This document shows positions 53,246 to 64,000 of a stretch of DNA of 64,000 nucleotides, in pieces. The translations under genes were made by a program, and so were the position numbers. Source of the stretch: Paroceanicella profunda (GTDB lineage: Bacteria; Pseudomonadota; Alphaproteobacteria; Rhodobacterales; Rhodobacteraceae). The notes under the pieces were generated by a model. That model saw only the letters and a list, made by a program, of their open reading frames with translations. It was not told the DNA's origin and did no database searches. Each line of letters opens with the position of its first letter. The first letter of the stretch is position 1. The DNA is taken from NCBI RefSeq assembly GCF_005887635.2, contig NZ_CP040819.1, positions 124,001-188,000 on the forward strand, given 5' to 3'.

Positions 53246-53617
53246 GTATCGCGTCACACCTCGTTTCCGGTCCGGGGCCCCGAGTGAACCAGCAGCGGCG
53301 GGGCTGTTGCAAGCCGCAAACGCTGCAGCGCGGCAGAGTCGGCCCGCAAAACACGGATATGTGCGTATTGCTGACCTTTTTCGTGCGCTCGGGCCGGAGT
53401 TTCGGCGGTTTCGGCGTGGATTCTTGCGTCCCGCATGGGGTTTCCCAAGATTCCGGTTGCATCGGCCCAGACGGGGCGGCAAGGGAAGAGCCCGTGCGAC
53501 GGGCCGCGGCCCAGCCCGCCGTCGCCATGGTCCGCTCCGGCCCCGCAGGTGAGACCGGAGCGGCGACACGCACATGCAGCGGCCCCGCGGGCCGGAATGA
53601 GGAAGGCCGGCCCCGGA
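53246..53617. other. Divergent spacer between MarR and TRAP genes
   Basis: A 372-base region that should carry the promoters of both units. No clear palindromic MarR site was picked out. An open frame leading into dctQ from 53435 is GC-biased low-complexity sequence and not regarded as coding. Confidence 0.4.
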
Positions 53618-54169
53618 ATGTCTGCTCTTGTCGTCATCGTCCGTCTGATCAGCGGCCTGAACCGCCTGATCGGTGCAATCTTTTCCTGGCTCGCCCTGGC
53701 GATCGTGGTGGTCTGCTTCGCGGTGGTGGTGCAGCGCTATGTCTTCTCCACCAGCTTCGTGTGGATGCAGGACCTCTACGTCTGGCTCAACGGTGCCATG
53801 TTCACCGCCGTGGCCGGCTTTGCGCTGATGCGCGACGACCATGTGCGCGTCGACGTGTTCTACCGCAACGCCCCGGTGCGCCGGAAGGCGATGGTGGACC
53901 TGTTCGGCGTCTTCGTCTTCCTGCTGCCCTATTGCTATGTCGTGGCCTTCTACGCCTGGCCTTTCGTGGCGCGCGCGTGGAAATACGGCGAAGGCTCGGC
54001 GAATTACGGCGGCATGCCCGGGCTCTGGGTGCTCAAGAGCTTCATCATCGCGTTCGCGGCCCTGGTGGCGCTGCAGGGCCTGGCCATGGCCGCCCGCAGC
54101 GTGCTGGTTCTGGCCGGGCGCGAGGCGGAGCTGCCCGTGTCCCTGCGATACACATCTGGCCAGGAGTAA
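53618..54169 (+). CDS. TRAP transporter small permease (DctQ-like)
   Basis: A 183-residue membrane protein with four hydrophobic helices ('AIFSWLALAIVVVCFAVVVQ', 'WLNGAMFTAVAGFALMRDDH', 'FGVFVFLLPYCYVVAFYAWP', 'SFIIAFAALVALQGLAMAAR') and the family motifs 'QRYVFSTSFVWMQDLYVWL' and 'DHVRVDVFY'. It pairs with the large permease 6 bases downstream. The larger loop 'WKYGEGSANYGGMPGLWVLK' is typical of DctQ partners of mannitol/chloroaromatic or TakP-type systems. The ATG follows AGGAAGG; an ATG 21 bases upstream is an alternative. Confidence 0.88.
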   Translation: MSALVVIVRLISGLNRLIGAIFSWLALAIVVVCFAVVVQRYVFSTSFVWMQDLYVWLNGAMFTAVAGFALMRDDHVRVDVFYRNAPVRRKAMVDLFGVFVFLLPYCYVVAFYAWPFVARAWKYGEGSANYGGMPGLWVLKSFIIAFAALVALQGLAMAARSVLVLAGREAELPVSLRYTSGQE

Positions 54170-54175
54170 TCCCCG

Positions 54176-55567
54176 ATGGATACGGTTCTGATCGGCGAGG
54201 TTCTCGCCGGCATCATGTTCTTCGGCATCATCGGGGTGCTGATGCTGGGCTTCCCGGTGGCCTTCACGCTGGCCGGCGTGTCGCTCCTCTTCGGGCTGGC
54301 GGGCCTGGCCTTCGGGGTGTTCGACCCCTCGAACCTCTCCTCCCTCGCGCCGCGCTACACCGGCTTCATGACCAACGAGGTGCTGGTGGCGGTGCCGCTG
54401 TTCATCTTCATGGGCGTGATGCTGGAGCGCTCGAAGATCGCCGAGCAGCTGCTGCTGACCATGGGCAAGCTCTTCGGCAACATGCGCGGGGGGCTGGGCG
54501 CCTCCGTCATCGTGGTGGGTGCGCTGCTCGCGGCCTCCACCGGCGTGGTGGGGGCCACGGTGGTCACCATGGGGCTGATCTCGCTTCCGGCAATGACCAG
54601 GGCGGGGTATGACCCGAAGCTCGCTTGCGGTGTCATCTGCGCCTCCGGCACGCTGGGCCAGATCATCCCGCCCTCCACCGTGCTCATCTTCATGGGCGAC
54701 ATGCTCTCGGGCATCAACGCCCAGGTGCAGATGGCCAAGGGCAACTTCGCGCCCACGCCGGTCTCGGTCGGCGACCTCTTCGCCGGGGCCTTCCTGCCCG
54801 GGCTGCTGCTGGTGGCTCTCTACCTCGCCTGGATTGCCCTGAAGGCGATCTTCGACCCGCAGAGCTGCCCGGCCACCCCGGTGCCGGCGGAGGAGCGCAG
54901 GCACCTCGGCCGCGAGATCGTGACCGCGCTGGTGCCGCCGCTGATGCTGATCTTCGCCGTTCTGGGTTCCATCCTGGGCGGCATTGCCACGCCGACGGAA
55001 GCCGCCTCGGTGGGCGCGGTGGGCGCGACCATCCTGGCCGCGGCGCGCTGGCGCCTGTCGCTCTCGGTGCTGCGCGAGGTCGTGGTCTCCGCCGCCAGCA
55101 TCACCTCCATGGTGTTCATCATCCTGTTCGGCGCCTCGGTGTTCTCCATCGTCTTCCGGCTTATGGGCGGCGACAACCTGGTGCACGAGATGCTTTCCGG
55201 CCTGCCCGGCGGCGTGACCGGGGCGCTGATCTCCGTGATGCTGGTGATGTTCCTGCTCGGGTTCATCCTGGACACGTTCGAGATCATCTTCATCGTGATC
55301 CCGATCACCGCGCCGGTGCTGTTCGACCTCGGGGTGGACCCGGTGTGGCTGGGCATCCTGGTGGGGGTGAACCTGCAGATGAGCTTCCTCACCCCGCCCT
55401 TCGGCTTCGCGCTGTTCTACCTGCGCGGCGTGGCGCCGGGGTCGATCTCCACCTCGATGATCTATCGCGGCGTGGTGCCCTTCGTGGGCATCCAGGCGGT
55501 GGCGATCGCGCTGCTGTTCATCTTCCCCGGCATCGCCACCTGGCTGCCGACCATGCTCTACCGCTGA
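54176..55567 (+). CDS. TRAP transporter large permease (DctM-like)
   Basis: A 463-residue membrane protein with about 12-13 helices. Family motifs: 'VAVPLFIFMGVMLERSKIAE', 'ASTGVVGATVVTMGLISLPA', 'ASGTLGQIIPPSTVLIFMGD' and 'LTPPFGFALFYLRGVAPGSI'. The extra cytoplasmic loop around 'FDPQSCPATPVPAEERRHLG' is seen in TakM-type proteins. With DctQ it forms the sodium-driven channel; the matching binding protein is probably the TakP-like one encoded 0.7 kb downstream on the other strand. Confidence 0.93.
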   Translation: MDTVLIGEVLAGIMFFGIIGVLMLGFPVAFTLAGVSLLFGLAGLAFGVFDPSNLSSLAPRYTGFMTNEVLVAVPLFIFMGVMLERSKIAEQLLLTMGKLFGNMRGGLGASVIVVGALLAASTGVVGATVVTMGLISLPAMTRAGYDPKLACGVICASGTLGQIIPPSTVLIFMGDMLSGINAQVQMAKGNFAPTPVSVGDLFAGAFLPGLLLVALYLAWIALKAIFDPQSCPATPVPAEERRHLGREIVTALVPPLMLIFAVLGSILGGIATPTEAASVGAVGATILAAARWRLSLSVLREVVVSAASITSMVFIILFGASVFSIVFRLMGGDNLVHEMLSGLPGGVTGALISVMLVMFLLGFILDTFEIIFIVIPITAPVLFDLGVDPVWLGILVGVNLQMSFLTPPFGFALFYLRGVAPGSISTSMIYRGVVPFVGIQAVAIALLFIFPGIATWLPTMLYR

Positions 55568-56302: not shown

Positions 56303-57388
56303 TCAGATCTTGTAGAACTTCTCGCGCGCGGCGAGGTAAGGCATCTCGGTGCCTTCCGTGCGGGTGCGCAGCAGGGCGAGGGCGGTGAGGAAGCTCTCCG
56401 CGGTCTTCTTGGTCATGGCGTCGGAGCTGTCGCGCAGCTCGGTCATGATCTCGGTCGCGGCCTTGGCGCCGGCCTCGTACACGTCGTCCGGGAAGGGGCG
56501 GACGATGACGCCGTGGTCATCGACCAGGGTCTTCAGCGCGCGCGGGTCGTTCGCGTACATGTCGGCGGAGACGTTGTCGTATTCCGCCTGGCAGCAATCG
56601 CGCACGATGGCCTGAAGGTCCTCGGGCAGGGCCTGGAACTTCTCCTTGCTCACCACGCATTCGGTGGCGAGGCCGGGCTCGTTGAAGCTCGGCATGTAGT
56701 AGTTCTTCGCCACCTGGTAGAAGCCGAGGGCGAGGTCGTTGTAGGGGCCCACGAACTCCGCCGCGTCCAGCGTGCCGGATTGCAGCGCCTGGAAGATCTC
56801 GCCGGCGGCCATGTTGGTGACGGTGACGCCCATCTTCTCCCACACGCGGCCACCGAGGCCGGGGGTGCGGAAACGCAGGCCCTTGAGGTCTTCGAGGCTG
56901 TTGATCTCGTTGCGGAACCAGCCGCCGGCCTGGGTGCCGGTGTTGCCCGAGGGGAAGGCCTGCACGCCGAACTGGTCGTACACTTCGTCCCAGATCTCCT
57001 GGCCGCCCATGAAGCGGATCCAGGCGCCGTATTCCTGCGCGGTCATGCCATAGGGCACGCCGGTGAAGAAGTTCAGCGCCGGGCTCTTGTTCTGCCAGTA
57101 ATAGGCAGCGGAGTGGCACATCTCGGCCGAACCGTCGATCACCGCGTCGAGCGACTGCAGCGGCGGCACCATCTCGCCGGCGGAGTAGAGCTGGACGGTG
57201 AGGCGCCCGCCGGAGGCGGCGGTGATGCGGTCCGCGAGGCGCTGCGCGCCCACGCCCAGACCGGGGAAGTTCTTCGGCCAGGTCGTGACCATGCGCCAGG
57301 TGGTGTTGCCCTGCGAAATCGCGGGCGTGGCAAGAGCTGCCGCCGCGCCGCCGATCCCAGCGGTGCGGATGAATGAACGCCGGTCCAT
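56303..57388 (-). CDS. TRAP substrate-binding protein, TakP-like (2-oxo acid type)
   Basis: A 361-residue periplasmic binding protein with a twin-arginine-like signal ('MDRRSFIRTAGIGGAAAALA'). Family features: 'WRMVTTWPKNFPGLGVGAQR', 'SAAYYWQNKSPALNFFTGVP', 'PSGNTGTQAGGWFRNEINSL' and 'LKGLRFRTPGLGGRVWEKMG' (the conserved Arg of the R-P motif binds the ligand carboxylate). TakP of Rhodobacter binds pyruvate and other 2-oxo acids with sodium. The adjacent DctQM pair on the opposite strand lacks its own binding protein, so they probably work together. Ribosome site GGAGGAGATC. Confidence 0.92.
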   Translation of the reverse strand: MDRRSFIRTAGIGGAAAALATPAISQGNTTWRMVTTWPKNFPGLGVGAQRLADRITAASGGRLTVQLYSAGEMVPPLQSLDAVIDGSAEMCHSAAYYWQNKSPALNFFTGVPYGMTAQEYGAWIRFMGGQEIWDEVYDQFGVQAFPSGNTGTQAGGWFRNEINSLEDLKGLRFRTPGLGGRVWEKMGVTVTNMAAGEIFQALQSGTLDAAEFVGPYNDLALGFYQVAKNYYMPSFNEPGLATECVVSKEKFQALPEDLQAIVRDCCQAEYDNVSADMYANDPRALKTLVDDHGVIVRPFPDDVYEAGAKAATEIMTELRDSSDAMTKKTAESFLTALALLRTRTEGTEMPYLAAREKFYKI

Positions 57389-57529
57389 GTTGATCTCCTC
57401 CTGACGTGATCGTTTCTTGGTATTTCGGCTGGGCTTCCGTTTACCAGTTTGCAGGCCCTGTGCCACCCAAATTCTCGTTTGTTGCGGCGCACATAGCGGA
57501 AAAATGGTGAAAATTTCCCTGCCGCGGGA

Positions 57530-58546
57530 TCAGTCGAGATTTTCGCGCAACATGATGAGCATCGGCAGGGCGGGGGCGGGCAGCTCCGCGCCGGCCAGCG
57601 CGCGCAGCGCGGTGGTGATCACCGCTTCCGGGCTCTGGCTGATGCAGGCGTCCATCGTCTCGTCGAGCAGGGCGGCGCGGGTGTCGGGGGTGAGCGCGTG
57701 GCCGATGAACAGGATGCGCCGGCCGCTCTCGCGCAGCGCCCGGGCGATGCCGTCGGAGGAGCCGCCGACATTGTAGATCCCCACCAGGTCGGGGTTGCGG
57801 GCGATGAGCTCGCGGGCGTGGTGGTAGTTCTCGTCGCGGTCGTCGTGCCCCTCCCGCGTGCCGGTGAGGCGCAGGCCGGGCATCATCTCGTCGAGAATGG
57901 AGAGGAAGCCGATCTCCCGCTCGCCATGCGCATGGTAGGCCCGGCTGGCCGCGATCAGCGCCACCGAGCCGCTGCGCCCGGCCGCGAAGCGCGCCATCAG
58001 GTAGCCCGCGGTGCGGCCCACCTGGCGGTTCTCCAGCCCGATATAGGCGTGGCGCCGGGTGTTCGGCACGTCCGAGACCAGGGTGACCACGCGCTTGCCG
58101 AGCTCCACCAGGTGGTCGGCGGCGGCGCGCACCAGCGGGTGGTCCACCGCCATGAAGGCCACGCCGTCCGAGCGTTCGCCGTGCCGGCGCAGCGCCTCGG
58201 CCATGGCGGCGGGGTTGAAGCTCTCCTCGAAATGGCAGCGGATGCGCGGGCTGCCGGGGGTGGGCTGGGCGGCGATCTCGCGCAGCCGCGCGCCGAGCAG
58301 GCGCAGGTAGGGGTTGCCGCCGCGCGGCAGCAGGAAGGTGTATTGCGCCACCTCCGGCTGCTGCATGCGCGCCACGTCCGCCGCGGAGAGATAGTCCAGC
58401 GCCGCCGCCGCCTCCAGCACCCGCTCCACCGTGCGCGCCCGCACCCCGGGGCGGCGGTTCAGCACCCGGTCCACCGTGGCACGCGACACGCCGGCGCGGG
58501 CGGCCACGTCCTCGATCAGCGGGCGGGAGGCGGGTGTGTCCTGCAT
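57530..58546 (-). CDS. LacI family transcriptional regulator
   Basis: A 338-residue repressor. The LacI DNA-binding domain is at the N-terminus ('IEDVAARAGVSRATVDRVLN', hinge 'RRPGVRARTVERVLEAAAAL'); the rest is a sugar-binding-protein-like effector domain ('SDGVAFMAVDHPLVRAAADH', 'VVTLVSDVPNTRRHAYIGLE', 'NPDLVGIYNVGGSSDGIARA'). The branch with 'ARAGVSRATVDRVLN' often senses sugars or polyols. It is divergent from the TRAP/RuBisCO-like operon and most likely controls it through the near-palindrome in the spacer. Confidence 0.92.
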   Translation of the reverse strand: MQDTPASRPLIEDVAARAGVSRATVDRVLNRRPGVRARTVERVLEAAAALDYLSAADVARMQQPEVAQYTFLLPRGGNPYLRLLGARLREIAAQPTPGSPRIRCHFEESFNPAAMAEALRRHGERSDGVAFMAVDHPLVRAAADHLVELGKRVVTLVSDVPNTRRHAYIGLENRQVGRTAGYLMARFAAGRSGSVALIAASRAYHAHGEREIGFLSILDEMMPGLRLTGTREGHDDRDENYHHARELIARNPDLVGIYNVGGSSDGIARALRESGRRILFIGHALTPDTRAALLDETMDACISQSPEAVITTALRALAGAELPAPALPMLIMLRENLD

Positions 58547-58578
58547 GCGGTACCTCAGAAAGCCTCAGAAATCACGTT

Positions 58579-58590
58579 TTGACGCATCAA
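58579..58590. promoter_or_regulatory. Candidate LacI-type operator
   Basis: TTGACGCATCAA is a 12-bp near-palindrome (one mismatch) with the central CG step typical of LacI-family sites. It is in the 126-base spacer between the divergent LacI gene and the TRAP operon. Two CCTCAGAAA direct repeats just before it (from 58553) are also notable. Confidence 0.5.
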
Positions 58591-58672
58591 GGGGGAATGG
58601 CGCACAAACACCGTGCAGACGTCAAGAAAAAGGCGCGAACGCGCTCAAAAAGCATCAAGGGAGGAGAACGGA

Positions 58673-59677
58673 ATGTCATTTTCACTCACGCGGCGCGCCC
58701 TGCTGGGCGCGGGTTTCGCTGCGGCACTGGCCGGGCTGGGCGCTGGCGCCTCGGCCCAGACCGTGCTGCGCTACGGGCACAACAATTCGCCGGACAGCGT
58801 GGTGGGCCAGCAGGCGGACTGGCTGGCCGGGGAGATCGCGAAGAACACCGGCGGCTCGGTGGAGGTGGAGGTCTATCCCGCCTCGCAGCTCGGCAAGCTG
58901 CAGGAGCTGGCGGAGGCCGTGTCGCTGGGCACCGTGGCGCTCTCGCACAACACCGCCGGGGCCTATTCCACGCTCTACGAGCCGCTGGGCGCGCTCGACA
59001 CCCCCTATCTCTACCGCGACGTGGACCACCTGATGAAGGTGATGGACGTGGACGGGCCGGTGATGTCCGGGCTCAACGAGGGGCTGATCGCCTCCGCCGG
59101 GGTGCGGGTGCTCTATGCCTTCTACTTCGGCGCGCGCCAGCTCACCGCGAACGAGGCCTTCCACGCGCCCGCGGAGCTGGCGGGCAAGAAGATCCGCGCC
59201 GTGCCCTTCCCGATCTACCTCACCGCGGTGGAGGGGCTGGGCGCCGCGCCGGTTCCGGTGGACTGGTCGGAGGTGCCCACGGCGCTGGCCACCGGCGTGG
59301 TGGCGGGGCAGGAGAACCCGGTCAACATCATCCTGTCGAACAAGCTCTACGACGTGCAGTCCACGCTGATGCTCACCGGGCACATCGCCTCCGCCGAGCT
59401 GGTGGTGATCAACGAGGATGTGTGGCAGGGGCTCACGGAGGAGGAGCGCGAGGGCATCCGCGCCGCCGCCCGCACGGTGCGGGACCGCGCCACCGCCGCG
59501 GTGCGCGACAAGGAGGCCGAACAGATCGAGGAACTGAAATCCCTCGGCATGACGGTGATCGGCCCGGAGGAGGGGCTGGACCTCGACGCCTTCCGCACCT
59601 CGGTGAAGGCGCTCGTGCATGAGCGCTTCGACGAGAAATACGGCGATCTCTACGCCAAGATCGACGCGGTGAAATGA
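58673..59677 (+). CDS. TRAP transporter substrate-binding protein (DctP family)
   Basis: A 334-residue periplasmic binding protein with signal 'RRALLGAGFAAALAGLGAGA'. DctP motifs: 'VLRYGHNNSPDSVVGQQADW', 'YPASQLGKLQELAEAVSLGT', 'PAELAGKKIRAVPFPIYLTA' (carboxylate-binding Arg) and 'ALATGVVAGQENPVNIILSN'. The ligand is probably a sugar acid, given the genes that follow. First gene of a six-gene operon, with GGGAGGAGAACGG as ribosome site; its stop overlaps dctQ (ATGA). Confidence 0.93.
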   Translation: MSFSLTRRALLGAGFAAALAGLGAGASAQTVLRYGHNNSPDSVVGQQADWLAGEIAKNTGGSVEVEVYPASQLGKLQELAEAVSLGTVALSHNTAGAYSTLYEPLGALDTPYLYRDVDHLMKVMDVDGPVMSGLNEGLIASAGVRVLYAFYFGARQLTANEAFHAPAELAGKKIRAVPFPIYLTAVEGLGAAPVPVDWSEVPTALATGVVAGQENPVNIILSNKLYDVQSTLMLTGHIASAELVVINEDVWQGLTEEEREGIRAAARTVRDRATAAVRDKEAEQIEELKSLGMTVIGPEEGLDLDAFRTSVKALVHERFDEKYGDLYAKIDAVK

Positions 59678-60195
59678 TGTTCGGGCGCGGTGTCTTCCGG
59701 CTGCTGGGTGCGGTCTCCACGCTGGGGCTCTGGCTGGGCATGGGGCTGCTGTTCCTGATCACGGCGCTGATCGTGCTTCAGGTGGTGGCGCGCAACCTGT
59801 TCAACCTCGGCCTGCCCTGGGCGGACGAGGGCGCCCGGTTCTGCGGCATCGCGCTCGTCTATCTCTGCGTGCCCTGGCTTGCGCTGCGGGGGCGGCACAT
59901 CGCGGTGGATCTCGTGTCCGCCCGGCTCACCGGGGGGTGGCGGCGCGGGCTCATGGCGCTCACCGAACTGGCGGTGCTCGGCTTCGCGGGCATCGTGCTC
60001 CACGGCTTCTCCGCCTTCCTGGAGCGGGCGGCGAAATTCGCCACGCCGGCGATGGGGATGCCCAATTCCATCTTCTATGCGCCCGCGGTGGCCGGCTTCG
60101 TGATGCTCGGCCTCATCGCGCTGGCGCGGCTTCTCACCCTGCTGGCGGGCGGCGCGGTGGAAGAGAGCGGCGAAGGCTTCGAGGGCCGGGTATGA
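59674..60195 (+). CDS. TRAP transporter small permease (DctQ)
   Basis: A 173-residue membrane protein with four helices ('GMGLLFLITALIVLQVVARN', 'FCGIALVYLCVPWLALRGRH', 'ALTELAVLGFAGIVLHGFSA', 'APAVAGFVMLGLIALARLLT'). 'LPWADEGARFCGIALVYLCV' and 'RGRHIAVDLV' are the DctQ signatures. Coupled to the binding protein before it and the large permease after it by ATGA overlaps. Confidence 0.9.
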   Translation: MMFGRGVFRLLGAVSTLGLWLGMGLLFLITALIVLQVVARNLFNLGLPWADEGARFCGIALVYLCVPWLALRGRHIAVDLVSARLTGGWRRGLMALTELAVLGFAGIVLHGFSAFLERAAKFATPAMGMPNSIFYAPAVAGFVMLGLIALARLLTLLAGGAVEESGEGFEGRV

Positions 60196-61469
60196 CACTG
60201 ATGCTGCTGGGCCTTTTCGGCCTCCTCATGGTGATGGGCGCGCCGGTGGCGGTGTGCCTGGGCCTGTCCGCGGCGGCGACCATCCTTGCCTTCGGCCAGC
60301 CGGTGGCGGTGATGGCGCAGCGGCTGCAGAACGCGCTCGACAGCGGGCCGCTCCTCGCCGTGCCGCTGTTCATCTTCGCCGCCAGCCTGCTGAACGCGAC
60401 CGGGGTCACCACCCATCTCTTCGACCTCATCCGCATGCTGGTGGGCCGGCTGCGCGGCGGCGTGGCGCAGGTGAGCGTGCTGGTGAGCCTGGTGTTCTCC
60501 GGCATCTCCGGGGCGGCGCTCGCCGATATCGGCGCGCTCGGCGGCATCCAGATCCGCCAGATGACCGAGCAGGGCTACCGGCGCGAGTTCGCCGCCGGCA
60601 TCACCATGGCCGCCGCCACCATCGGGCCGATCTTCCCGCCCTCCATCCCGATCATCATCTACGCCGCCGCGGCCAATGTCTCGGCCGTGAAGCTGCTGCT
60701 GGCGGGCGTGGTGCCGGCGCTGATCATCACCGTGTTCCTGATGCTGCAGATCGCCGTGATCGGGCGGCTCGCCGACCTGCCGCGTGACACCGTGCGCCCC
60801 ACGAAACGCGCCATCGCCCGCAAGGCCGGCATCTCGGCGCCCGCGCTGCTCGCGCCGGTGCTGCTGATCGGCGGGCTGATGAGCGGGCTGTTCGGGCCCA
60901 CCGAGGTGGCCGGCATCACCGTGGCCTATGCCATCTTCGTGGGCATATTCATCTACCGCGCGCTGAGCCTGAAGGACTTCCTCACCTCCGCGCGCGAAAC
61001 GGTGGAGAGCACGGCGAACGTGCTCTTCATCGTCTCTGCCGCCGCGCTCTTCGCCTGGGTGCTCACCGTGGCGCGCGCGCCGGCGGAGGTCTCGGCCTTC
61101 CTGCTGGGGCTGAGCGACAACCCGCTGGTGCTGCTGCTCATCGTCAACGTGATCCTGCTGGTGGTGGGCATGGTGCTGGAGAGCATCGCCGCCATCCTGA
61201 TCATCGCGCCCATCGTGGCGCCGGCGCTCACCCTTGCGGGGGTGGACCCGCTGCAGCTCGGCATCGTCTTCGTGCTCAACCTGATGATCGGGCTGCTCAC
61301 GCCCCCCGTGGGCATGAGCCTCTACATGGTCTCGATCATCGCGAAGATGCCGCTGCACCGGGTGATCGCCGGCGTGGTGCCCTTCCTGATCCCGCTTTTC
61401 CTGTCGCTTCTGGTGGTCACGCTGTTTCCCGGCCTCTCCACCTGGCTTCCCAACCTACTCATCAAGTGA
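60192..61469 (+). CDS. TRAP transporter large permease (DctM)
   Basis: A 425-residue membrane protein of 12 helices, the standard DctM length. Motifs: 'LLAVPLFIFAASLLNATGVT', 'FSGISGAALADIGALGGIQI', 'AATIGPIFPPSIPIIIYAAA' and 'IGLLTPPVGMSLYMVSIIAK'. The start is the ATG of the ATGA overlap with dctQ; longer upstream frames are shadows. It completes the importer for the operon's substrate. Confidence 0.94.
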   Translation: MTLMLLGLFGLLMVMGAPVAVCLGLSAAATILAFGQPVAVMAQRLQNALDSGPLLAVPLFIFAASLLNATGVTTHLFDLIRMLVGRLRGGVAQVSVLVSLVFSGISGAALADIGALGGIQIRQMTEQGYRREFAAGITMAAATIGPIFPPSIPIIIYAAAANVSAVKLLLAGVVPALIITVFLMLQIAVIGRLADLPRDTVRPTKRAIARKAGISAPALLAPVLLIGGLMSGLFGPTEVAGITVAYAIFVGIFIYRALSLKDFLTSARETVESTANVLFIVSAAALFAWVLTVARAPAEVSAFLLGLSDNPLVLLLIVNVILLVVGMVLESIAAILIIAPIVAPALTLAGVDPLQLGIVFVLNLMIGLLTPPVGMSLYMVSIIAKMPLHRVIAGVVPFLIPLFLSLLVVTLFPGLSTWLPNLLIK

Positions 61470-61475
61470 GGCGCC

Positions 61476-62015
61476 ATGAGCACCCTTTTCGGTGAAATCC
61501 GCCAGCTCGGCTATGTGGTCGAGGACATCGAGGCCGCGATGGCGCATTGGAGCGCCGAGCTCGGCGTGGGCCCGTGGTTCTACAACCCGAAAGTGCCGAT
61601 CGAGGACTATCGCTATGACGGCGAGCCCTACGAGGTGCACAATTCGGTGGCGCTGGCCAATTCCGGCTTCATCCAGGTGGAGCTGATCCAGACCCGCAAC
61701 GACGCCCCCTCCATGTACCGCGACTTCCGCCTCGCCGGGAACCTCGGCCTCCAGCATGTCGCCTACTGGACCCAGAGCTTCGACGCCGATCTCGCCCGGG
61801 CCGAGACCGCCGGGTTCGAGGTGAAGATGAGCGGCTGCGTGGGCGCCAACGGCCGGTTCGTCTATTTCTCGAAGGAGGCGCACCCCGGCACGGTCATCGA
61901 GCTTTCCGAGGTGATGGGCCCCAAGGGCCGCATGTTCGACATGATCCGCGAGGCCTCCACCGGCTGGGACGGCTCGGACCCCGTCCGCCCCTTCCCGGAC
62001 CTCGCGAGGATCTGA
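61476..62015 (+). CDS. VOC/glyoxalase-superfamily protein in the sugar-acid operon
   Basis: A 179-residue vicinal-oxygen-chelate protein: 'IRQLGYVVEDIEAAMAHWSA' opens the first beta-alpha-beta unit, 'FIQVELIQTRNDAPSMYRDF' holds a likely metal-binding Glu, 'GLQHVAYWTQSFDADLARAE' (His) opens the second unit and 'HPGTVIELSEVMGPKGRMFD' has the last Glu. With His/Glu/Glu present it can bind a metal and may catalyse an isomerisation, epimerisation or cleavage. It lies 6 bases after dctM and 3 bases before the RuBisCO-like gene, so it should act on the same substrate. Reaction unknown. Confidence 0.88.
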   Translation: MSTLFGEIRQLGYVVEDIEAAMAHWSAELGVGPWFYNPKVPIEDYRYDGEPYEVHNSVALANSGFIQVELIQTRNDAPSMYRDFRLAGNLGLQHVAYWTQSFDADLARAETAGFEVKMSGCVGANGRFVYFSKEAHPGTVIELSEVMGPKGRMFDMIREASTGWDGSDPVRPFPDLARI

Positions 62016-62018
62016 GCC

Positions 62019-63278
62019 ATGCTCGAAGCGCAATACCTCGTCGAGACCCCGCTCGACCCCGCCCGCGTCGCCGAGATCATGGCCGGCGAGCAGAGCTGCG
62101 GCACCTTCGTGCGCGTGGAGGGCGAGAGCGACGATCTGCGTGCCCGCGCCGCCGCTCGCGTGCTCTCGGTGGAGGAACTGGCCCCGGCCGAGCGGCCCTC
62201 GCTCTCCTCCTCCTACCTCGAGCGCAAGGGCTTTGGTGCGCCCTGGCGGCGCGCGCGGGTGCGCGTGGCCTTCCCGGAGGCGAATTTCGGCGTGAACCTG
62301 CCCACCATGGCCGCCACCGTGGCCGGAAACCTGTTCGACCTAGGCGAGGTGACCGGCCTGCGGCTGGAGCGGCTCTCGGTGCCCGCCCACATCCGGGCGG
62401 ACTACCCGCGCCCGCTGGTGGGCGTGGCGGGCACCCGCGCCTCCACCGGGGTGCAGGACCGGCCGCTCTTCGGCACCATCATCAAGCCCAACGTGGGCCT
62501 GCGCACGCCGGAGCTGGTGGCGCTGGTGGAGCGGCTGTGCACCGCCGGGCTCGACTTCATCAAGGACGACGAGACCTGCGCCAACCCGCGCCACGCCCCG
62601 CTGGCCGAGCGCGTGCCCGCCATCATGGAGGTCATCCGCCGCCACCGCGACCGCACCGGCCGCCAGGTGATGATGGCCTTCAACGTGACCGACGAGACCG
62701 ACGCCATGCGCCGCCACGCCGACCTGATCGAGGCCGAGGGCGGCACCTGCGCCATGGTGAGCCTGAACTGGGTGGGCCTCGCCTCGGTGGAGAGCCTGCG
62801 CCGGGCCACGCGGCTGGCCATCCACGGCCACCGCAACGGCTTCGGCGGCTTCGGCCGCCACCCGGCCATCGGCATGGCCTTCCCGGCCTACCAGGCGCTC
62901 TACCGGCTCGCCGGGGTGGACCACATGCATGTGCACGGCATCGACGGCAAGTTCTCCGACGATCCGTCCGAGGTGGCCGAGGGTGCGCGGCTCTGCCTCG
63001 CCCCGCTCGCGCCCGGCGGGGATGACCCGGTGATGCCGGCCTTCTCCTCCGGCCAGTGGGCGGGCACGCTGGCGGCCACCCATGCGGCGGCCCGGTCGGA
63101 AGACTTCCTGTTCATGGCCGGCGGCGGCATCCTCGCCCACCCTTCCGGTGCGGAGGCCGGCGTGCGCGCCCTGCTCGACGCCTGGGAGGCGGTGCGCGAC
63201 GGCGTGGCCCTGGAGCAGGCCGCGAAGGCGAGCCGCCCGCTCGCCGAGGCGATCGACTTCTTCGGGGCGCGCACGTGA
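62019..63278 (+). CDS. RuBisCO-like protein (form IV type), sugar-acid catabolism
   Basis: A 419-residue RuBisCO-large-subunit homologue. Against true RuBisCO: Lys156 in 'FGTIIKPNVGL' corresponds to catalytic Lys175, but the next Lys (177) is Asn158; Lys182-Asp184-Glu185 in 'FIKDDET' keep the carbamylated Lys and both Mg ligands; His306 and Lys311 in 'HVHGIDGKFSDD' match the loop 6 region; 'FMAGGGILAHPSG' is the phosphate-binding Gly loop. So it likely forms a metal-stabilised enediolate but is not a CO2-fixing enzyme. Known relatives act as 3-oxo-isoapionate-4-phosphate decarboxylase or transcarboxylase/hydrolase; that kind of reaction is inferred from the DUF1537 kinase next door. Confidence 0.93.
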   Translation: MLEAQYLVETPLDPARVAEIMAGEQSCGTFVRVEGESDDLRARAAARVLSVEELAPAERPSLSSSYLERKGFGAPWRRARVRVAFPEANFGVNLPTMAATVAGNLFDLGEVTGLRLERLSVPAHIRADYPRPLVGVAGTRASTGVQDRPLFGTIIKPNVGLRTPELVALVERLCTAGLDFIKDDETCANPRHAPLAERVPAIMEVIRRHRDRTGRQVMMAFNVTDETDAMRRHADLIEAEGGTCAMVSLNWVGLASVESLRRATRLAIHGHRNGFGGFGRHPAIGMAFPAYQALYRLAGVDHMHVHGIDGKFSDDPSEVAEGARLCLAPLAPGGDDPVMPAFSSGQWAGTLAATHAAARSEDFLFMAGGGILAHPSGAEAGVRALLDAWEAVRDGVALEQAAKASRPLAEAIDFFGART

Positions 63279-64000
63279 GCACCGGCCTCGCCTTCATCGC
63301 CGATGATTTCACCGGCGCCTCCGACACGCTGGGTGTGTTGGGCCGGGCCGGGCACAAGGTGCGCCTGCATCTCGACCTGCCGGGCCGGGGCTATGACGGC
63401 ATCGCCGGCGTGGCCACCGCCCTGCGCTCCATGGGGCCGGGGGAGATCCGGCCGGAGGTCCGGCGACTCGCCGCCGGGCTGATCGCGCGTGGCGCCCGGG
63501 TGCTGCACTACAAGGTCTGCTCCACCTTCGATTCGAGCCCGGAGATCGGCTCCATCGGCGCGGCGGCGGAGGGGTTTCGCGCCGCCTTCCGCCATGCCGG
63601 AGCGGGGGAGCCCCTGATCGCGGTGATCGGGGGGCAGCCCGGGCTCGGGCGCTACTGCCATCATGGCACGCTCTTCGCCGCCGCGGCGGACGGCGCGGTG
63701 CACCGCATCGACCGACACCCGGTGATGGCCCGCCACCCGGTGACCCCGATGAAGGAGGCGGACCTGCGCCGCCACCTCGCCGCCCAGGGGCTGGACGGGC
63801 TCGCGCTGATCGACGAGCGCGATCTCGCCGCCACGCCGCTGAAGGCGCTCGCCGCCGCGCGGGCGGCCGGCGCGCGCCGCATGCTCTTCGACCTCGGGCG
63901 CAACGACGATCTGCCGGCCCTGCGCCTCGCGCTGGAGGCTCTCGCCGCCGAGGCGCCGCTGGTCTGCATCGGCCCGAGCAGCGTGATGGAGGCGCTGCGC
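63275..64000 (+). CDS. DUF1537 (four-carbon acid sugar kinase) family protein, 5' part
   Basis: The first 242 residues of a sugar-acid kinase; the 3' end is beyond the window (family length about 400-430). The start 'LAFIADDFTGASDTLGVLGR' is the DUF1537 N-terminal motif, 'VLHYKVCSTFDSSPEIGSIG' carries the K.CSTFDSS substrate motif, and 'LIAVIGGQPGLGRYCHHGTL' follows. The family phosphorylates erythronate, threonate, 3-oxo-acids and, as OiaK, 3-oxo-isoapionate. It begins with GTG in a GTGA overlap with the RuBisCO-like gene, so kinase and RLP products are made together, as expected for consecutive steps. Confidence 0.92.
   Translation, partial: MSTGLAFIADDFTGASDTLGVLGRAGHKVRLHLDLPGRGYDGIAGVATALRSMGPGEIRPEVRRLAAGLIARGARVLHYKVCSTFDSSPEIGSIGAAAEGFRAAFRHAGAGEPLIAVIGGQPGLGRYCHHGTLFAAAADGAVHRIDRHPVMARHPVTPMKEADLRRHLAAQGLDGLALIDERDLAATPLKALAAARAAGARRMLFDLGRNDDLPALRLALEALAAEAPLVCIGPSSVMEALR

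Follow-up and report, generated by a model that had tools for sequence, protein, structure and literature searches.

Within a 64,000-nucleotide stretch of the genome of Paroceanicella profunda (contig NZ_CP040819.1, positions 124,001 to 188,000; G000:C2:124001-188000), referred to here as the window, a LacI-family regulator, a TRAP importer (DctPQM), a VOC-fold protein, a RuBisCO-like protein (RLP) and a DUF1537 kinase form a single operon. This operon is well defined and widespread, and it represents a variant among sugar-acid pathways of the RLP/DUF1537 kind, a putative VOC enzyme taking a key slot. The VOC protein probably delivers the substrate for a 3-oxo-isoapionate kinase/RLP pair, replacing the oxidoisomerase ApnO by a non-oxidative isomerisation resembling that of glyoxalase I. 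The observations that bear on this are the gene order and its conservation, the clade of the RLP, the active-site signature of the VOC protein, the absence of ApnO and a natural exchange of the RLP/kinase pair. The genes are arranged as follows:

57530..58546, minus strand: LacI-family regulator, divergently oriented (PF00356 and PF13407)
58547..58672, no strand: lacI-dctP intergenic control region, read from the sequence
58613..59677, plus strand: DctP, TRAP solute-binding protein (PF03480, 200.7 bits; best-scoring solved structure 4nq8)
59674..60195, plus strand: DctQ, TRAP small permease (PF04290, 78.9 bits), with a 4-base overlap with dctP
60192..61469, plus strand: DctM, TRAP large permease (PF06808, 362 bits; TIGR00786 above cut-off), with a 4-base overlap with dctQ
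61476..62015, plus strand: VOC-fold enzyme, the proposed isomerase upstream of the kinase (PF13669), after a 6-base gap from dctM
62019..63278, plus strand: RLP of the KPN clade described below (PF00016 and PF02788), after a 3-base gap from the VOC gene
63275..64522, plus strand: DUF1537 kinase (SBD_N plus NBD_C; PF07005 and PF17042), with a GTG start and a 4-base overlap with the RLP gene

These coordinates and Pfam families agree with the original prediction, made from the sequence of the window, of one operon from LacI to kinase, and the measured overlaps and gaps bear out its statement that the importer is joined to the enzymes by overlaps and gaps of 3–6 bases. DctP, DctQ and DctM together constitute a TRAP transporter (PF03480, PF04290 and PF06808). 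One importer, three enzymes and one regulator seem to make up a whole catabolic unit.

When species-representative genomes were scanned with the RLP, 178 relatives were found, the best 80 of which (59–95% identity) were analysed; counts over 80 loci refer to these. The VOC gene lies just 5' of the RLP gene and the kinase gene 3' of it, all adjacent, in 80/80 loci, and the association is therefore not due to chance. A LacI homologue is present in 78 loci, the contigs of the other two ending upstream. Every one of the 80 also has TRAP genes, which are of two types: one is DctPQM, the arrangement of the window (DctM scoring at least 350 bits in 50/80), and the other has a fused DctQM (its DctP, DctP2, in 30/80). 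The DctP of the fused type is 24–28% identical to that of the window, and three of the 30 DctP2 loci (L046, L057 and L059) yielded no fused permease. In the betaproteobacterial locus L163, an SBP_bac_3 ABC importer takes the place of the TRAP genes. No other gene turns up at a constant position across the 80 loci, the largest other cluster of open reading frames covering 27/80, on both strands. Identity to the window proteins in 79 loci (without the closest genome) is 69–83% for the VOC protein, 59–70% for the RLP and 34–50% for the kinase. In a phylum-wide sample of 398 genomes, all eight matches to the VOC protein at 68% identity or more (own genome included) adjoin an RLP gene; among relatives at 48–53% identity, an RLP gene lies within about 1.5 kb in 0/11, and five wider contexts gave no lead. 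Two VOC-RLP-kinase operons (L187 and L238) have a weak SDR match between lacI and dctP. In Azospirillum argentinense the operon is carried by plasmid p2, and plasmids of A. brasilense also bear the VOC gene.

Neighbourhoods were counted within 8 kb of the RLP gene, where the locus reaches that far. ApnO-like, LerI-like and Gfo/Idh genes were each found in 0/80 loci, and the ApnO domain (PF16896) in no protein of the genome of P. profunda. The VOC gene occupies the slot of ApnO between transport and RLP, as had been predicted. LerI and DerI, which together would mark an OiaX pathway, are not combined in the operon. No oxidising enzyme would be required if the imported acid were already an oxo or aldehydo isomer.

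The RLP belongs to the RuBisCO superfamily (PF00016, 197 bits; PF02788, 36.9 bits), contains DFIKDDE, with the carbamylated-lysine motif KDDE, and keeps the KDDE, KP, HR and GGG motifs. Three identities were rejected by score: OiaX, the 3-oxo-isoapionate-4-phosphate decarboxylase (NF042437, 381.8 bits against a cut-off of 700), true RuBisCO (form III model TIGR03326, 222.4 bits against 497.45, with KPN instead of KPK) and MtnW, the diketo-methylthiopentyl-phosphate enolase (144.5 and 115.2 bits against 409 and 513.6), the last being an assignment that had been foreseen as fatal to the original prediction. The kinase is a DUF1537 protein (PF07005, 145.4 bits, gathering threshold 25; PF17042, 80.3 bits, gathering threshold 28.3) and scores below the models of OiaK, the 3-oxo-isoapionate kinase (NF042436, 181.2 bits against 700), and of 3-oxo-tetronate kinase (NF043035, 126.4 bits against 350). 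Of the claim that RLP and kinase constitute the core of apionate catabolism, the relationship stands, the nearest RLP clade being apionate-linked, but at 382 and 181 bits against cut-offs of 700 the two proteins are distinct from the established ones. The other DUF1537 kinase of this genome (L004:5738-11736, G000:C4) is accompanied by a regulator of the GntR/FCD type, a class II aldolase and, as judged from the open reading frames, a TRAP set, resembling a tetronate operon.

Trees were inferred quickly from hand-picked rows (56 RLP, 44 VOC and 51 kinase, the kinase tree without the L004 row) and carry support values from the Shimodaira–Hasegawa-like approximate likelihood ratio test (SH-aLRT) only. 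The motifs KPN and DH.HVHG..GKF are common to the RLPs of all 80 loci; in RLPs from operons with ApnO, apiose-type ABC importers, SDR or racemase genes, the motifs are KPS and VNG (or CNG), and KPA is found in OiaX. In the tree, the KPN RLPs form one clade (support 98) and the ApnO/apiose-linked RLPs another (support 98, including one SDR-linked row), which places the RLP, as the original prediction had proposed doing, in a clade of its own near the apionate-linked RLPs. Judged from its context, the ApnO/apiose-ABC-linked clade would be OiaT, the RLP that acts as a transcarboxylase/hydrolase. Membership of OiaT was rejected for the window RLP, which has KPN..VHG..GKF and lies outside this KPS..VNG..NKF clade, and no OiaT model appeared among its NCBIfam matches. 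The window RLP matches the PDB entry 3nwr (E 3.7e-172). The protein in this structure has the KPN motif and is 92.8% identical over 417 residues to the RLP of a VOC operon in Paraburkholderia ginsengisoli (L048); by sequence, the orphan structure 3NWR belongs to the KPN clade. On plasmids of Bradyrhizobium elkanii, Agrobacterium and Rufibacter (L115, L118 and L121), the RLP-kinase pair lies beside an SDR or Asp/Glu-racemase family gene rather than VOC or ApnO, and these neighbours are further candidate entry enzymes.

The main argument for placing the VOC protein where ApnO stands comes from one genus (g267), in which the VOC gene occurs in 15/242 genomes at 70–74% identity. The RLP adjoining it is of the KPS type, the apionate-linked motif class, in 11 of the 15 and of the KPN type in four. 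Nine of the 11 KPS loci were read with wide flanks. In all nine, the kinase is OiaK-like (43–46% identity to OiaK vs 35–37% to the window kinase) and the remainder of the operon is retained, with identities of 46–50% for LacI, 77–80% for DctP2, 79–82% for DctQM2 and 71–73% for the VOC protein; none contains ApnO, LerI, DerI or Gfo/Idh. The KPS RLPs of this genus nest within the clade of ApnO/apiose-ABC-linked RLPs (support 98) and the kinases among apionate-linked kinases; the VOC proteins of the same loci nest among those of KPN operons. A single clade for all VOC-linked RLPs is rejected by the approximately unbiased (AU) test (p-AU 0.0148; 38 rows against 17, with L181 omitted, its RLP having been called short). 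The plain reading of these trees is that an apionate-type RLP/kinase pair replaced the native pair, importer, regulator and VOC protein remaining unchanged. If this replacement is true, the VOC product would therefore be accepted by OiaK-type kinases and their RLPs. A choice had been left between a variant apionate route and a pathway for another branched or oxo sugar acid. The exchange and the absence of ApnO support the variant route, but apionate itself is unlikely as the imported substrate, because there is no oxidising enzyme in the operon.

The VOC protein, currently annotated merely as 'VOC family protein', consists of 179 residues with a single PF13669 domain (81.6 bits, gathering threshold 27), which places it in the VOC superfamily; an NCBIfam search matched no family. 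Its AlphaFold 2 model has a mean predicted local distance difference test score (pLDDT) of 95.4, and the Foldseek neighbours of this model are the putative methylmalonyl-CoA epimerase 3gm5, which comes first, other methylmalonyl-CoA epimerases, 4-hydroxyphenylpyruvate dioxygenases and glyoxalases. The structure 3gm5 was also the sole match in a PDB sequence search (E up to 1). Q10, E69, H94 and E142 are invariant in 43/43 aligned VOC sequences, and we take them, from the alignment, to be the four putative metal-ligand positions of the superfamily. The ligands are Gln/Glu/His/Glu in human glyoxalase I and His/Gln/His/Glu in methylmalonyl-CoA epimerase. The VOC protein shares its fold with both enzymes, as it would the four putative ligand positions, whereas its sequence is far from both and its putative ligand set is like that of glyoxalase I. 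In glyoxalase I, a hydrogen is shifted from one carbon to its neighbour by way of an enediolate; forming a 3-oxo acid by aldose-ketose or ketol isomerisation would be related chemistry. One VOC gene (G794:C2:501232-501765; L173 and L189) is interrupted by a stop codon in frame, although its operon is otherwise complete, and G794 is represented in the VOC tree by a 33-residue piece only.

VOC protein, kinase and RLP may thus form a self-contained, non-oxidative variant of the apionate-type route with the VOC protein in place of ApnO, a specific mechanism to which we accord only slightly less than an even chance. DctPQM would take up a small, branched sugar acid of the oxo or aldehydo kind, probably with five carbons. 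The VOC enzyme would isomerise this acid without redox, by metal-assisted enediolate/ketol chemistry at its glyoxalase I-type Q/E/H/E site, and its product would be a 2-hydroxy-3-oxo acid, namely 3-oxo-isoapionate or a close analogue. By comparison with OiaK and 3-oxo-tetronate kinase, the DUF1537 kinase would phosphorylate the terminal hydroxyl. The RLP would act on the beta-keto acid phosphate, splitting it in the manner of OiaT into 3-phosphoglycerate and a two-carbon acid, for example glycolate; such a cleavage is likelier than plain decarboxylation, because no tetrulose-phosphate isomerases are present. A search for glycolate oxidase (GlcD) was uninformative on the product, giving matches in 22/22 VOC-bearing genomes (none above cut-off) and in 11/14 controls (two above). 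LacI would control the operon, presumably as a repressor; a simple palindrome scan of the lacI-dctP region over relatives yielded no common operator.

The VOC gene is also found in other contexts. Twenty-four loci around DctP genes of the fused-TRAP type (L226-L249) were chosen for reading, and nine contain the VOC gene: five with an RLP gene, three with a kinase gene and no RLP gene, and one with neither. The three (L229:1691-9662, L230 and L232, in G1026, G985 and G1010) represent a second type of VOC operon, with a fused-TRAP importer and a VOC protein 63–66% identical to that of the window. The fused-type DctP, modelled from L044, is 62–63% identical to 4OAN. 4OAN is reported to have been modelled with acetolactate, an analogue of 3-oxo-isoapionate. 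As a clue to the ligand, 4OAN was rejected and is not used as evidence: a 100% identical gene (G1078) adjoins an acyl-CoA ligase gene rather than VOC or RLP, and is a paralogue in another pathway. The 4OAN TRAP protein, with its fused permease and acyl-CoA ligase (L226:4331-9036 and L227:7697-12314), is kept in a second genome. No paper naming RPB_2686 or 4OAN was found in the literature searched. The TRAP ligands listed in sections of a review include 2-acetolactate and pantoate/D-erythronate (PMC5812351).

Several observations weigh against the proposed role of the VOC protein. The three operons without RLP (L229, L230 and L232) have a dehydrogenase of the PdxA type and an aldolase of the DhnA type in addition to their OiaK-like kinase. 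PdxA normally takes a 3-hydroxy acid phosphate, a poor fit with a 3-oxo VOC product, so that these operons support the VOC protein feeding a kinase but suit a 3-oxo product less well. In L233 (G1066:C1:1623500-1641000, 17.5 kb), which we regard as an incomplete or split operon, LacI, DctP and VOC genes occur with no permease, RLP or kinase gene. The KPN and apionate-linked RLPs differ at three conserved positions (N/S, H/N and G/N), perhaps a sign that substrate or reaction is different, and the product may have changed when the exchanged RLP/kinase pair was taken up. The orthology of LacI and TRAP proteins across the exchange is judged by identity, that of VOC, RLP and kinase by trees. In 5/80 loci an SDR-like gene occurs no more than 8 kb from the RLP gene, a DerI-like gene lies 7 kb away in 1/80, and a PF16896 gene occurs elsewhere in 2/22 VOC-bearing genomes (G654 and G728). 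Finally, the nearest VOC folds are named methylmalonyl-CoA epimerases, which points to epimerase chemistry.

This last point leads to an alternative that we consider unlikely, in which the VOC protein is an epimerase, acting by 1,1-proton transfer, that turns the imported stereoisomer of a hydroxy or oxo acid into the one accepted by the kinase, the substrate being no isomer of apionate. Such an activity would account for 3gm5 as the first fold match and sole sequence match, and would suit the PdxA-type operons too; the Asp/Glu-racemase gene beside the Rufibacter RLP-kinase pair (L121) belongs to another family with 1,1-proton transfer. However, 3-oxo-isoapionate has no alpha hydrogen and cannot be the epimerised compound. 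The putative Q/E/H/E ligand set matches glyoxalase I rather than the H/Q/H/E of known epimerases.

It is improbable that the VOC protein takes no part in the pathway and disposes of what the RLP forms on the side, either a reactive dicarbonyl or a dead-end product. Dicarbonyls can arise from RLP enediolate intermediates, and the putative metal site is of the glyoxalase type, but a disposal enzyme would hardly be better conserved than the RLP and the kinase, as the VOC protein is over the 79 loci, nor would it be kept when both are exchanged or be found with a kinase and no RLP. Just as improbable is an RLP acting as an oxygenase on a keto-polyol phosphate to give 3-phosphoglycerate and glycolate, products that call for no further operon gene. 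There is a precedent on record in the RLP oxygenase of D-hamamelose catabolism (Kim et al., 2018, as cited in parts of PMC8914248 and PMC10176493), in which, according to sections of one of these papers, an RLP ends a branched-sugar route with the same two products (PMC8914248). The operon of the window, by contrast, has no dehydrogenase gene with which to make a keto-polyol, and the hamamelose system was set beside it by description, not sequence.

L-threonate/D-erythronate catabolism proceeds through the isomerase OtnI (2-oxo to 3-oxo tetronate), the kinase OtnK and OtnC, an order of isomerase, DUF1537 kinase and C–C cleaving enzyme like the one proposed here, whereas the VOC and RLP folds are unlike those of OtnI and OtnC. 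That the substrate is accordingly an unbranched 2-oxo acid, with the VOC protein replacing OtnI, the kinase being a 3-oxo-tetronate kinase and the RLP replacing the decarboxylase OtnC, is the least credible of the alternatives: the kinase does match the 3-oxo-tetronate kinase model (126 bits) and the TRAP family includes pantoate/D-erythronate binders, as listed in a review (PMC5812351), but the kinase remains under the cut-off of that model (350) and scores higher with OiaK (181), the genome already encodes another DUF1537 kinase (L004), next to genes for a class II aldolase and TRAP proteins, and the exchange partners are apionate-linked, not tetronate-linked.

As regards the limits of the operon, the ATG at 58673, preceded by GGGAGG, is a likelier start of dctP than 58613. 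The kinase gene crosses the end of the window, its last 522 bases lying past 64000, to window-equivalent position 64522 (L003:6275-7522); the contig extends beyond the window. The operon ends at the kinase gene. Next comes an uptake set of the cobalt/nickel type, with genes for DUF4198, CbiM, CbiQ and an ABC ATPase, and farther on a Peripla_BP_6 importer protein. The original prediction had proposed looking past 64000 for an ApnO-like oxidoisomerase, a lactonase or further enzymes; the contig, read on, revealed no further pathway enzyme. A second TRAP set adjoins the operon on its other side, comprising DctQ and DctM (53435-55567, plus strand) and an oppositely directed, Tat-type DctP (56303-57466, minus strand).

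The closest known system is the catabolism of D-apiose and D-apionate, reportedly described by Carter and colleagues in 2018 with OiaK and either OiaX or OiaT as the RLP. It resembles the present operon in having an RLP gene beside or overlapping a DUF1537 kinase gene and in providing the nearest RLP clade, and in one genus its RLP/kinase pair stands in for the native pair after the VOC gene. The present operon differs in having a VOC gene and not ApnO, no lactonase, dehydrogenase or tetrulose-phosphate isomerases, a TRAP importer as opposed to a ribose-type ABC importer (L122), the RLP motif KPN/VHG, and scores far under the OiaX and OiaK cut-offs. Excerpts of a published account confirm two RLP reactions on 3-oxo-isoapionate-4-phosphate (PMC6302742). 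No description of a VOC-RLP-kinase operon was found in the literature searched, which was mostly open-access and available in part, DUF1537 being mentioned only in the reference lists of RLP papers. Likewise, 3NWR, a member of the KPN clade, is a structure alone, named 'A rubisco-like protein' in the PDB listing, and no operon function attached to it was found.

Few RLPs have a known reaction, as a review also states (PMC10176493). The operon seems to hold every component of a pathway and nothing else, and so only a few assays would be needed to probe a large clade of RLPs for which a crystal structure, 3NWR, exists. A VOC family that is highly conserved also gains a proposed place in a pathway, and the exchange of RLP and kinase in nature is a rare test of which intermediate connects them. 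More broadly, and with a confidence distinctly short of even, the VOC protein may be a new non-oxidative entry to intermediates of the 3-oxo-isoapionate type, in a widespread pathway of VOC enzyme, DUF1537 kinase and KPN-type RLP by which proteobacteria of sea and soil would handle a common but so far unrecognised branched acid. A reaction or stereochemistry of its own would then set apart the KPN clade, 3NWR included, and a second pathway, with a PdxA/aldolase route, would have re-used the VOC enzyme.

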